DNA of 64,000 nt from Rhodothermales bacterium (lineage in GTDB: Bacteria > Bacteroidota > Rhodothermia > Rhodothermales > UBA10348). The notes beneath the pieces are model-generated. The model did not search any database, was not told the origin of the DNA, and was given only the letters and a program-made list of their open reading frames with translations. The stretch is taken from the NCBI GenBank assembly GCA_040221055.1, contig JAVJVN010000014.1, positions 363,001-427,000 on the forward strand, in the 5' to 3' direction. A program made the position numbers and the translations under genes. Shown piece by piece: positions 20,766 through 25,465 of this stretch. The number at the start of each line of letters is the position of its first letter. The stretch's first letter is position 1.

Positions 20766-21482
20766 TCAGAACGGCACGTCAACGGCCTCGGCCAGCCACT
20801 TCACCAACGGCCGACCCCGCTCCATGAGCTGCGCCACGTGCGGCACGACGTCCGGCGCCAGCACCTCGTCATCGGACATGGACCGGAAGGCGACGAAGTC
20901 CTTCCGCTTCAGGTCCTCGATTTCCGGGTGGTCCGGAGCGTATCCCTTGGGCGCGCGCACCAGCGAATCGCCGCCCCAGCGGAAGTTGGTTTCCCCACCG
21001 CCACTGTCCGGCGCTTTGCCTGAGCCCCCGAACACCGCATCCCGCGCCGCATGCCATGCCTCCGGATCGGCATCCATGGCTTCCCGGATGGCGCGCAACG
21101 CCGGGCCGTCCCCGCGCCACAATCCCATACCCACCATGCTCCTTCCGGGCTGGATGTGGAAATAGAACCCGGGCGCGACCCCGTCCTTCCCGCTGGCGTG
21201 CCGGAAACGGATGGCCGCCCACGTCTTGTAGGGCGTCTTGTTCTTCGAGAAGCGCGTATCCCGGTAAATCCGGAACAGCGATCCCCCCGAATCGCTCGGA
21301 ATGGCGTGATAATGCGGGCTCAACCCGGCCACGAGCGGCCCGATGTCCTCAATGAAGCGGAACAGCGGCTGCCGGTACACCGCTTCATACCGCGCCTTGT
21401 TGGCCTGGAACCAGTCCCGGTCGTTGTGGGCTTCCAGGTCGGCCAGAAAATCGAAGAGTTCGGTCGTGATGTACGGGTTCAT
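20766..21482 (-). CDS. DUF2461 family protein
   Basis: 238 residues. The opening FDFLADLEAHNDRDWFQANKARYE and the central SLFRIYRDTRFSKNKTPYKT are the hallmarks of the DUF2461 (TIGR02453) family, widespread in bacteria and of unknown biochemical role. Length is normal and the protein is soluble. It is followed by the peroxiredoxin gene 62 bases away. Its upstream side is the unusual repeat array at 21567-21888, so its promoter may lie in or beside that array. Confidence 0.88.
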   Translation of the reverse strand: MNPYITTELFDFLADLEAHNDRDWFQANKARYEAVYRQPLFRFIEDIGPLVAGLSPHYHAIPSDSGGSLFRIYRDTRFSKNKTPYKTWAAIRFRHASGKDGVAPGFYFHIQPGRSMVGMGLWRGDGPALRAIREAMDADPEAWHAARDAVFGGSGKAPDSGGGETNFRWGGDSLVRAPKGYAPDHPEIEDLKRKDFVAFRSMSDDEVLAPDVVPHVAQLMERGRPLVKWLAEAVDVPF

Positions 21483-22088
21483 GACGGCAAGTTAAGGATC
21501 CGGCTCGCGAGTGGAAGGCTCAGCCTATGAACGTCCTGGACTGTTTGTGCGCCCCACGCCTGATATTGGCGTGAAACGAGGACGAGAATGGAATTATGGG
21601 CCATTTAAGCACGTTCCAGCTGATTGGCCACTGAACAGGGTGGCTGAGACTGGCCCGCAACCGTTACAATCTGGCGTAAAATCCCGGGTACATGGCGTGT
21701 AAGTGCACGAAAGTGGCGCAATTCGCGATGAACCTGGCGCGTAAATTCCAAGGCCGAATTGTGCAGCACACACGTGCGGCCGAAACACCCCGAATTTCGC
21801 GCCACCCATACAGGGTTAGGCGCCAGATTTAGGTAAAAACACGCCAGAATCCATCATATTCGCGCCATTCTTGCACGAATAAGTGCCACATTTCTAACGC
21901 GCTCGCCTGAATATCCGAGATGTTTTGCTCGAAAAAGCGCCATTACGCATTAAAAATGGCATCCGGAAGCGTGCGTGTATTCACGCCACAGTACTTTCGC
22001 GCCAGATCAGACGGAAGGGAAGGTGCGAAGCCCCTCACCGTACACAGACTGTTCCTGCGCCGAACCTCGCCACGTGTCCACATCCGAT
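21483..22088. other. 606-bp gene-free region between the DUF2461 gene and uvrC
   Basis: No open frame here looks like a protein, and no tRNA or known RNA is visible. Most of the region is occupied by the phased TGGCG array described in the next entry. A small inverted repeat, CACGCC-N7-GGCGTG, lies at 21555-21573 at the left border. Both neighbours are transcribed leftwards, so this holds the promoter of the DUF2461 gene and the 3' flank of uvrC. Confidence 0.6.
21567..21888. repeat. Symmetric array of TGGCG motifs at exact 21-bp pitch
   Basis: On the plus strand TGGC(G/C) begins at 21567, 21651, 21672, 21693, 21714 and 21735; the steps are 84, 21, 21, 21 and 21. In the right half the motif is inverted, with CCA ending at 21804, 21825, 21846, 21867 and 21888, all steps 21. 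The two arms mirror each other around 21769.5. The best copies read TGGCGCGTAAATTC (left) and TGGCGCGAAATTC (right, read on the minus strand). Weaker copies fall at half-pitch (for example 21641) and further right (21942, 22004). Unit sequences between motifs are not conserved, so this is not a simple tandem repeat or CRISPR. Exact two-turn spacing suggests a protein or bend repeated on one face of the helix. Confidence 0.75.
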
Positions 22089-23936
22089 TCACCGGGCCGA
22101 ACCGGATTCAAAATAATTGATGATGCGCGCGGCGGCGGCCGGTCCCACCACCTCCGCCAAGGTCCCTTCTCCCGCCTTGCGGATGCGCTCCACCGATCCG
22201 AACGCTTTCATGAGTTTGCGGGCCGTGGCCGGGCCGACGCCCTGGATGTCCTCGAGTTCGGTGTGCAGCGTGGTCATGGTGCGCTGCTTGCGCTGGAAGG
22301 TGACGGCGAAGCGGTGGGCTTCGTTGCGCACGCGCTGGAGCAACTGCAGCGAGGCACTGGCCTTCGGGATGAACCGGCTCTCGGTATCGCCCGGGAAAAA
22401 CACCTCTTCCAGGCGTTTGGCCAGGCCGACGACCGGGAATTTCCCGTAGGCCTCCACGTCCACGAGCGCCTGCACGGAGCTCGACAGCTGCCCCTTGCCT
22501 CCGTCAATGACCACCAGGTCGGGCCAGGGGCCATTCTCCTCTACCATCTTGCCGTACCGGCGCCCCACCACTTCCTTCATGGCCAGGAAGTCGTCGCTTC
22601 GCCCACCGCCCACCGAGCGCACCTTGTACGTCCGGTACTCGCTCTTGCGGGGTTTGCCGTCCACGAATACGACGCACGACGCCACGACGTTCGTGCCGCC
22701 CAGGTGCGAAATGTCGAAGCACTCAATCCGGCGCGGCAGGCGGGGGAGCAGCAGGTCCTGCTTCAACGCCGTCACCGTATGCGGGATCTTGCCCTCGTTC
22801 GCGCGCTGGCGCTGCAGTTTGAACTCCTCCAGGAGCAGCTCGGCGTTCCGGGTCACCATGCGGATGAGGCCGGCCTTGTCGCCCCGCTGCGGCACGTGCA
22901 TGTGCACCTTGCCCTGGCGCCGGGCATTCAGGTAGGCCTCTACCGGTCCCTGGTCTTCAAGCGGCACGGCCAGCAGTACCTCCTCCGGGAAGAACGTGGT
23001 CTCCGTGTAGTAGTGCTCCACGACGGTCTGCAGCAGCGCGGCATCGCTTTCGTCGCCCACCCGGTTCATGTATTTGTTCTGGCGGGCAATCAGCTTGCCC
23101 TCGCGCATCTGCAGGATGGCGGCTGCAGCGAGTCCCGATTCGCGGTCCACGGCCAGCGCGAACAGGTCCCGGTCCACGAAGTCGTTCGACATCACCTTCT
23201 GGCGGTTCGTGTACTTCTCGAGCGCATCGACCCGATCCCGGAGCCGGGCGGCCTCCTCGAACTGCATGGCGGCCGCGGCGGAGCGCATCTCCTCCTTCAG
23301 CATCCCGATCAGGGACTTCGTCTTCCCGTTCAGGAGCTGCTCGATCTGCCGGATGGATACATCGTATTCCTCCGCGGATTCCAGGCCCACGCACGGCCCG
23401 TTGCACTTTTTGATGTGATACTGCAGGCAGACCTCGTACTTGCCGGCGGCAATGGGCTCCGGCGCCAGGTTCAGCGTGCACGTGCGCAGGCGGAAGATGG
23501 AGCGGATGGTATCGAGCATGATCCGCATGGACTTGACGTCCGTATACGGGCCGAAGTATTTCGATCCGTCGCGGATGGTCCGGCGCGTCGGGAATATCCG
23601 CGGGAAGGGCTCGTTCTTGATGCAGATGTACGGATACGTCTTGTCGTCGCGCAGCGTGATGTTGTAGCGCGGGCGGAGATCCTTGATGAGGTTGTTCTCC
23701 AGCAGCAGCGCCTCGACCTCGGTGTCCGTGACAATGACTTCCACGTCGTGGATTTTCGACACCAGGATGCGCAGGCGGCCCTCCCGGTTGCGGCTGTCGT
23801 GGAAGTACGAGTTGACGCGGGCGCGCAGGTTCTTGGCCTTGCCCACGTACAATACGTTGCCGTCCACGTCCTTGTGCTGGTACACACCCGGCCGGGTCGG
23901 AAGGTTGGCAAGCGTCTGTTCGAGATCGGGGTGCAT
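22089..23936 (-). CDS. uvrC: Excinuclease ABC subunit C
   Basis: 615 residues. The N-terminal GIY-YIG nuclease (PGVYQHKDVDGNVLYVGKAKNLRARV) makes the 3' incision. A UVR motif that contacts UvrB lies around 205-240 (SLIGMLKEEMRSAAAAMQFEEAARLRD). The RNase H-like domain that makes the 5' incision has its Asp in ECFDISHLGG (about 403-412). A helix-hairpin-helix tail (IQGVGPATARKLMKAFGSVERI) closes the protein. Function: nucleotide excision repair with UvrA and UvrB. It appears to be a single gene. Confidence 0.97.
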   Translation of the reverse strand: MHPDLEQTLANLPTRPGVYQHKDVDGNVLYVGKAKNLRARVNSYFHDSRNREGRLRILVSKIHDVEVIVTDTEVEALLLENNLIKDLRPRYNITLRDDKTYPYICIKNEPFPRIFPTRRTIRDGSKYFGPYTDVKSMRIMLDTIRSIFRLRTCTLNLAPEPIAAGKYEVCLQYHIKKCNGPCVGLESAEEYDVSIRQIEQLLNGKTKSLIGMLKEEMRSAAAAMQFEEAARLRDRVDALEKYTNRQKVMSNDFVDRDLFALAVDRESGLAAAAILQMREGKLIARQNKYMNRVGDESDAALLQTVVEHYYTETTFFPEEVLLAVPLEDQGPVEAYLNARRQGKVHMHVPQRGDKAGLIRMVTRNAELLLEEFKLQRQRANEGKIPHTVTALKQDLLLPRLPRRIECFDISHLGGTNVVASCVVFVDGKPRKSEYRTYKVRSVGGGRSDDFLAMKEVVGRRYGKMVEENGPWPDLVVIDGGKGQLSSSVQALVDVEAYGKFPVVGLAKRLEEVFFPGDTESRFIPKASASLQLLQRVRNEAHRFAVTFQRKQRTMTTLHTELEDIQGVGPATARKLMKAFGSVERIRKAGEGTLAEVVGPAAAARIINYFESGSAR

Positions 23937-23972: not shown

Positions 23973-24671
23973 CTACAACATGGCCTTCAGCCGCGGCAGG
24001 TGGTCTTCCTCCCCGTAGAGTGCCAGCAACCGTTCGAGCTCTTCGAAGACCAACGGCCAATTCATGGTTTCGCCGCTGCGCTGGATGATTCGATCAATGT
24101 CTACCCAATCCTGGCCGCGTCCCGCGACGGTCTTCGTGATAACGAGGTCTTCAGCCGAGCAGATGCGGAGTGGAACCATCAAACCATAGTTTTGGCTAAC
24201 AGAACGTTCCGTTATTCGCTTCTCGAAAGGAGTATACCCGACGAAAATGTCCACTTCGTAGTTGTTCGGAGTGCGCCCGAAAAATACCCGATGGGTCTGG
24301 AAATCCCTGCTTGCTTCCTCGTCTCGGAAGGCCAGGTGTTTCATCAAGACAGCCAAGACGTCCGTTTCCCGGCCCAACTCGCAATAGACGTTCAGGTCCA
24401 GGTCGGTTGTTTGACGGACTTCGCCCCAGTGTTGTAGCGCGACGCCACCAATGAAACAGAATGCAACGCCATCCTCTGTCAACGCCTGCTGCAGGGCAGC
24501 CGCATCATCGAAAAGGGATATACCTGGTTCGCGAACCATGAACAGGCCGTGCAATCCATGCAGCCACTTTTCATGCGTGCGCTCCTTCAGCGCTTTCCTG
24601 CGCACCTCGTTCGCACGCTCGAAGCCAAGCTTCTTCCGTTCGATTTCTGCTATGAGGGTTGCTTGGTCCAT
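23973..24671 (-). CDS. Nucleotidyltransferase-fold (AbiEii-like) protein, copy 2 of a tandem pair
   Basis: 232 residues from the ATG at 24671, chosen because this start aligns with its paralogue; the frame is open upstream to 24785 but that part overlaps the paralogue. The core FCFIGGVALQHWGEVRQTTDLDLNVY has the GG...DxD layout of the DNA polymerase beta-like nucleotidyltransferase fold seen in AbiEii-type toxins and related proteins. It is a close relative of the gene immediately upstream (stop eight bases before this start), so this is a tandem duplication. No antitoxin gene is adjacent. Whether it transfers nucleotides, and to what, is unknown. Confidence 0.7.
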   Translation of the reverse strand: MDQATLIAEIERKKLGFERANEVRRKALKERTHEKWLHGLHGLFMVREPGISLFDDAAALQQALTEDGVAFCFIGGVALQHWGEVRQTTDLDLNVYCELGRETDVLAVLMKHLAFRDEEASRDFQTHRVFFGRTPNNYEVDIFVGYTPFEKRITERSVSQNYGLMVPLRICSAEDLVITKTVAGRGQDWVDIDRIIQRSGETMNWPLVFEELERLLALYGEEDHLPRLKAML

Positions 24672-24679
24672 TGTTGCCA

Positions 24680-25405
24680 CTAAGATGGATACTCGTCGGC
24701 GACCATCTGTTTGAGTCTTGGCAGGTTTTCGTCCCGGCCCGCCATTTCGAGCAGTGGTGCCAATTCCTGGTAGATCAGATCCCAATCCATCGAGTCCCCG
24801 GAGCGCTGGATGATGCGCTGGATATCGACCCAGTCCTGCCCACGACCGGCCAGGGTCTTCATGACGGTCAGGTCAACAGCCGAGCAGATATGGAGGGGCA
24901 CGCCAACGCCATAGTCATGGTCAACGGCGCGTTCCATCATGCGGCGTTCGTAGGGCGTGAATCCGATGGAAATGTCCACCTGTGTGCCCTTCGGCGTCCG
25001 CCCCAGATACATCCTTCCCAGCAGGAATACATCCCTGGAGTCTTCAATACGGGGATTCAAATACCCATTCAATACAGGCAGGATGTCCGGCTCCGTACCC
25101 AGCTCACAGAAAATGGTCAGGTCGATGTCGGTTGTTTGGCGAATTTCACCCCACAGCTGGAGCGGAACGCCTCCAATGAAGCAGAACTGAATATCATGGG
25201 CTTGGAGTACCTGCTGCAATTCGGCCGCCTCTTCGAACAAATACCCGTTTGGTTCGCGGACATGGAGAATGCTGCGGTGCACACGCGGCAGCGATTCAAG
25301 CCACTGCTCCTGCGTCCGGTTCTTGAGGTCCTGCACGCGCAATTCCTCTGCGCGGCGGTAACCCCACTCCCGGTCGATGTTCTTTTTCAGATACTCGATG
25401 TCCAT
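24680..25405 (-). CDS. Nucleotidyltransferase-fold (AbiEii-like) protein, copy 1 of a tandem pair
   Basis: 241 residues from the ATG at 25405; a further in-frame Met lies at 25435, but alignment with the downstream copy favours 25405 (MDIEYL against MDQATL). Conserved block FCFIGGVPLQLWGEIRQTTDIDLTIF holds the GG motif and the paired metal-binding acids (DID). A second shared block is MKTLAGRGQDWVDIQRIIQRSG. The two copies keep the same key residues, so neither looks dead, but they differ through the body, suggesting different partners or targets. Confidence 0.7.
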   Translation of the reverse strand: MDIEYLKKNIDREWGYRRAEELRVQDLKNRTQEQWLESLPRVHRSILHVREPNGYLFEEAAELQQVLQAHDIQFCFIGGVPLQLWGEIRQTTDIDLTIFCELGTEPDILPVLNGYLNPRIEDSRDVFLLGRMYLGRTPKGTQVDISIGFTPYERRMMERAVDHDYGVGVPLHICSAVDLTVMKTLAGRGQDWVDIQRIIQRSGDSMDWDLIYQELAPLLEMAGRDENLPRLKQMVADEYPS

Positions 25406-25465
25406 GACATCAATATAGACCCATCGGGGATCCACGCATAACCTGCCATGACCGAAGAGAAATCA

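Follow-up and report, generated by a model that had tools for sequence, protein, structure and literature searches.

Paired, helically phased arrays form a dispersed family of noncoding chromosomal elements in a Rhodothermales bacterium and its relatives

The element between uvrC and a DUF2461 gene

The window analysed here is a 64-kb stretch (64,000 nucleotides) of contig C14 of a Rhodothermales genome (G000). Two neighbouring minus-strand genes, one encoding a DUF2461 protein (20766-21482) and the other uvrC (22089-23936), both with confirmed family assignments, are separated by 606 bp from the uvrC stop to the DUF2461 start. This gap houses the element, which is noncoding, with 3-7 stops in each of the frames, as the first-pass annotation had proposed. 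Elsewhere in the window, two adjacent, overlapping minus-strand ORFs (23973-24785 and 24680-25435) appear by eye to be paralogues (motif FCFIGGV.LQ.WGE.RQTTD) and are possibly nucleotidyltransferase-like. Between about 38000 and 54000 the GC content is lower (down to 40%) than in the rest of the window, and this stretch is possibly an acquired island.

The element consists of two halves, each with an outer site, then a gap and then five core sites. On the left, the outer site TGGCGTGAAA (21567..21576, plus strand) is followed by the outer gap (21577..21650) and an array of five TGGCSYR sites (21651..21741, plus strand) starting at 21651, 21672, 21693, 21714 and 21735. Past the centre (21742..21797), which differs between copies and is unphased, comes the right array of five inverted sites (21798..21888, minus strand), with the T of each at 21804, 21825, 21846, 21867 and 21888. 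The right outer gap (21889..21994) carries A/T runs and partial sites at 21942 and 21988, and leads to the right outer site TGGCGCGAAA (21995..22004, minus strand, T at 22004). The exact 21-bp spacing and mirrored arrangement of five TGGC and five inverted GCCA sites, described by the first-pass annotation, are borne out by these positions and by the null model given below. The sixth forward copy that it reported four units out, at 21567, is the left outer site and lies exactly 84 bp (8.0 turns of 10.5 bp) outside the left array; its right counterpart stands 116 bp, or 11.05 turns, beyond the right array. The true extent of the element is therefore from outer site to outer site, about 438 bp, which is larger than the two arrays alone. 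Copies at half pitch were also mentioned; these are present but minor. TGGC also starts at 21625 and at 21641, the latter 10 bp before the array, and the additional GCCA ends fall at 21942, 21988 and 22004.

An array of this kind is not expected by chance. In 100 windows of 64 kb simulated with a Markov-1 model, the longest run of sites at 21-bp spacing was one (once), two (96 times) or three (three times), and a mirrored arrangement of three plus three was found in none. The only runs of at least three in the real window are the five and five of the element. A chance origin is rejected on this ground. The filler between sites is unrepeated, which, in line with the first-pass annotation, rules out a CRISPR locus or a tandem duplication.

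An 11-bp palindrome, AGGCTCAGCCT (21516..21526), is near the left edge of the region that alignment shows to be common to the copies on C14, C15 and C21 (see below). It is the sole match in the window, where 0.02 would be expected. A degenerate counterpart, AGACTGTTCCT (22046..22056), marks the right edge and is intact in the C15 and C21 copies of the alignment. The meaning of palindromes of the type AGGCTNAGCCT as element termini is uncertain, because their genome-wide frequency is about that of a reversed control. The middle base of AGGCTSAGCCT is always C or G (12/12 in G000, 16/16 in the congener G003); the sequence sometimes occurs as a pair about 150 bp apart, and it edges three of the four G000 elements.

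A dispersed family of elements

The feature in the window belongs to a family of noncoding elements that are scattered through the chromosome. A first search for four TGGC at 21-bp spacing in 41 relatives gave further arrays in the genome of the window and in others. From 18 arms, eight of them from G000, a sequence-only model (R1) was built, which at E-values up to 0.1 recovers in G000 exactly those eight arms, that is, four elements on four contigs: C14 (the window), C15, C18 and C21. The left and right arrays of the window match with E = 8e-14 and E = 1.7e-14, values that are not independent of the model, which was built with both of these arms. At E = 0.0005, R1 matches occur in 9 of the 27 family genomes. 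The congener G003 has five compact elements and one with halves about 7 kb apart, and in the congener G001 two elements are paired while one half (G001:C87) apparently stands alone. In a sister genus (g5) the same plan is seen with a spacing of 20 bp and an occasional 21, commonly in the order 20, 20, 21, 20 from the outside in, and its outer distances are asymmetric (in most cases 62 bp for one half and 115 bp for the other). The sister genus presumably belongs in or near Rhodothermales. The 21-bp phase anticipated for relatives thus holds for the genus of the window (g1), whereas the sister genus uses about 20.25 bp instead. Relatives do lack the phasing at the uvrC-DUF2461 locus, but not genome-wide, since they carry the same phasing elsewhere.

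Some arrays of similar appearance are coding. Those in a ribulokinase-like gene (G017 and G020) and an AsmA-like gene (G003) are in-frame protein repeats and were excluded from the family. Such seven-residue repeats (xGAxxxx-like) yield 21-bp TGGCG arrays at L061:4390-4803 (G020:C314), L060:5880-6026 (G017:C95) and L058:1539-1644 (G003:C102), and in G020 they occur in both orientations. Annotated phage and plasmid collections contain no similar DNA. Viral contigs gave at least 120 pattern matches, with no convincing element among the matches listed; the two best mirrored candidates are repetitive, coding-type sequence. In a pattern scan of 84,980 species, the architecture is seen, among the 119 stretches listed, only in what look like the sister-genus genomes described above. 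An inverted array from a Prevotellaceae bin was set apart as different, being strongly repetitive: at L318:605-863 a near-perfect 21-bp tandem array (TTTGGCGYAAACCTACGCATC) is followed by a roughly inverted array of the type AAGCCAAAGGTACGCACTTTT. Several Halobacillus records (L233, L242, L255, L258, L271 and others) show, among the matches listed, TGGCGCR runs at 20-21 bp, with mirroring unlike that of the family.

Iteron origins and plasmid partition arrays also have direct repeats of about 20 bp in helical register, a likeness that the family shares. This iteron-like layout, together with dnaA about 1.5 kb away, speaks for the earlier proposal that the window element may be a replication origin or a partition centromere. 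The proposal is not supported by the comparison and is very improbable: the genome of the window holds four copies on four contigs, the uvrC-DUF2461 locus is empty in three congeners, and other genomes hold several elements at unrelated loci. Unlike iteron or partition arrays, the elements are inverted pairs and dispersed in multiple copies, and none of the 27 family genomes encodes a Rep_3 initiator, in a search whose controls were positive.

Helical phasing and predicted curvature

A profile of 92 units shows a strong TGGCGCG, with A/T favoured two bases further on and the filler near zero bits. There are usually five core sites per half, two helical turns apart, and a single outer site with the consensus TGGCGCGAWW. 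From outer site to array, the distances fall close to integer multiples of 10.5 bp. The Rayleigh R is 0.93 for the genus of the window (n=19 halves; equalled by 0/20,000 nulls) and 0.86 for the eight distinct outer distances of the sister genus (p = 8e-4), although copies share ancestry within genera, so that the counts, here and below, overstate independence and the effective samples are smaller. The two genera agree separately on the phasing. The left outer gaps of the C14 and C15 elements are homologous and give distances of 84 vs 126 bp; they differ by indels of 31 and 11 bp, or about three turns and about one.

The composition of the outer gaps has the same period. A/T content varies at 10.25-10.5 bp with an amplitude of 9.5 in the genus of the window and 8.7 in the sister genus, vs 0.91 and 0.89, respectively, in shuffled controls (s.d. 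about 0.47). This phasing starts at the outer site, passes through the array and ends at the last core site; in the centre and beyond the element the signal is close to background. Individually it is significant at the 0.05 level in 35 of 40 halves, including the left gap of the window (p = 0.038); the right gap of the window (p = 0.167) is not significant on its own. The length of the centre is roughly helical in the genus of the window but not in the sister genus, and for this reason phasing across the centre is not claimed. This, and the apparently solo half G001:C87, weaken the case for pairing of the two halves.

Predicted curvature, the calculation of which had been recommended, lies above the mean of shuffled sequences in every one of the 18 halves examined, with a mean z of 2.6 and a stronger value in the right half of the window element (z = 3.3); these z-scores, obtained with a wedge table, are indicative only.

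If the mirrored arrays were transcribed, they might instead fold into a long hairpin and act as RNA. The array does fold better than shuffled sequences (z -3.2), but many cognate site pairs are left unpaired in the predicted fold, the fillers do not pair, and the window contains no Rfam match at gathering thresholds. The 10.25-10.5 bp period and the phased A/T content are, moreover, features of double-stranded DNA, and an RNA element is the least credible of the readings considered.

Genomic neighbourhood and conservation in place

Across the elements there is no common neighbour gene or orientation, and convergent, tandem and divergent flanking genes all occur. Neighbouring genes on one side are common to G000:C18 and G003:C96, and likewise to G003:C99 and G001:C22. 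A local regulatory role, in which an element serves the genes beside it as operator, silencer or insulator, might be read into the frequent position of elements between convergent genes, the proximity of several to polysaccharide genes, and the copy that two species have upstream of a NusG-like gene. As the adjacent genes are unrelated and their orientations of all three kinds, and as the window element has no promoter or terminator signal, local regulation is improbable.

In three species (G007, G017 and G020; loci L075, L084 and L085) an element is present at an orthologous locus, within matching flanks that are 71-75% identical. In a comparison that covers this one locus, three species and one half (the 62-bp side), the sites are 85% identical between species and the filler 47-53%, and for non-cognate units the values are 75% and 31%. 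Judged from this comparison, which shows the sites held as the filler drifts, at least one element appears to be kept by selection. Together with the simulated runs, the phased distances and the phased A/T content, the contrast between site and filler supports the suggestion of the first-pass annotation that placement on one helical face is selected.

The main rival reading is that each element is a left and a right end of a DNA transposon brought together, with a layout as in Mu or Tn7-like elements or with an unrecognised transposase, and that the copies are mini-elements free of cargo. The outer site would then be where the transposase binds at the terminus, with internal sites making up the core array. 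Dispersed homologous copies are what such a history would leave, and the window copy sits between genes that, in three congeners lacking the element, either overlap by 4 bp (two congeners) or are 30 bp apart (the third). The left and right sides are asymmetric (in the sister genus, mostly 62 vs 115 bp), as are the ends of Tn7-like and Mu elements, whose TnsB or MuA sites likewise comprise an outer terminal site and, at each end, several helically phased direct repeats, with the two ends in inverted orientation (PMC10201428). Tn7-like ends are known to require that their TnsB sites be helically spaced (PMC10201428), and the family does have multiple helically spaced sites of the same orientation in each half, inverted between halves.

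One copy, G003:C99 (L064:3150-10005), has about 7 kb of genes between its inverted halves, encoding a PIN-domain protein, a DUF4143 AAA protein, a DUF4926 protein and two similar small ORFs. This interior is possibly cargo, or an island inserted into the centre of an element. No transposase was found in it, only a sub-threshold match to a resolvase HTH. An rve integrase domain is found in the carriers G000, G003, G007, G017 and G020 but not in the carriers G001 and G013. Similarity between copies continues about 50 bp past the outer sites, with no target duplication seen by eye in the compared copies, and the sites are conserved in place at the orthologous locus, which is unexpected of a dead insert. 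Unlike Tn7 or Mu ends, the family also has five core sites per half in a fixed register. On balance transposon ends are an unlikely explanation; an origin of the copies by transposition followed by later retention would reconcile the mobile-like features with the conserved sites.

Candidate proteins and related systems

Known wrapping proteins offer partial parallels. Neither histone-fold proteins (PF00808; archaeal controls positive) nor RemA (PF04025; controls positive) are present in any of the 27 family genomes. Lrp-type proteins occur in 25 of the 27, with or without elements, and are not discriminating, because element-free genomes have them as well. Wrapping of DNA around a protein ring has been proposed for RemA (PMC8481266), and the family resembles the sites of RemA and of Lrp/AsnC octamers in its A/T-rich contacts, which are weakly conserved and recur once every turn through 100-160 bp (PMC8481266). 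It differs from them in its strong TGGCGCG every two turns and its inverted pair of halves. Another comparison is with the intergenic heptamer direct repeats of the TAACTGA type, which are mostly intergenic and dispersed in some Bacteroidetes and others, and have been proposed to act in translational regulation (PMC4679880). The family shares with these the heptamer direct repeats, mostly intergenic position and dispersal, but has spaced arrays, mirrored halves and helical phasing.

Proposed role in chromosome architecture

The reading that we favour, with a little more confidence than doubt, is that the family represents paired, helically phased platforms for a cooperative DNA-bending or wrapping protein; the bent or wrapped platform raised in the first-pass annotation is supported in this form, with the protein itself inferred. 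On one face of the DNA, a sequence-specific protein would occupy the non-palindromic sites in head-to-tail order, and the phased A/T steps would allow the DNA to bend around or wrap it for about 150-260 bp in each half. Across the unconstrained centre the halves may come together or pair, forming one nucleoprotein complex. Copies may have spread by duplication or transposition and would now be kept in place. Because neighbour genes and their orientations vary, a role at the level of the chromosome (loop anchor, domain boundary or architectural site) is more likely than control of single genes.

The element type looks like one that has not been described before. We suggest, more tentatively and at somewhat less than an even chance, that it constitutes a new class of chromosomal architectural element: paired inverted units of phased wrapping, with one boundary site and, as a rule, five core sites apiece, selected in place. 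A lineage-specific protein would read them, its geometry setting the register of the genus (21 vs about 20.25 bp). The novelty concerns the DNA element, and would lessen if a transposase owns it; even then, the copies would expose an unrecognised transposase system. If the architectural reading is true, the genomes of some bacteria specify nucleosome-like or loop-forming DNA units, which begin and end sharply and follow a helical code that can be measured. These would give a direct handle on how chromosomes are shaped at chosen places and a clean route to the protein, and the genus-specific register would be a natural experiment in the co-evolution of protein geometry and DNA.
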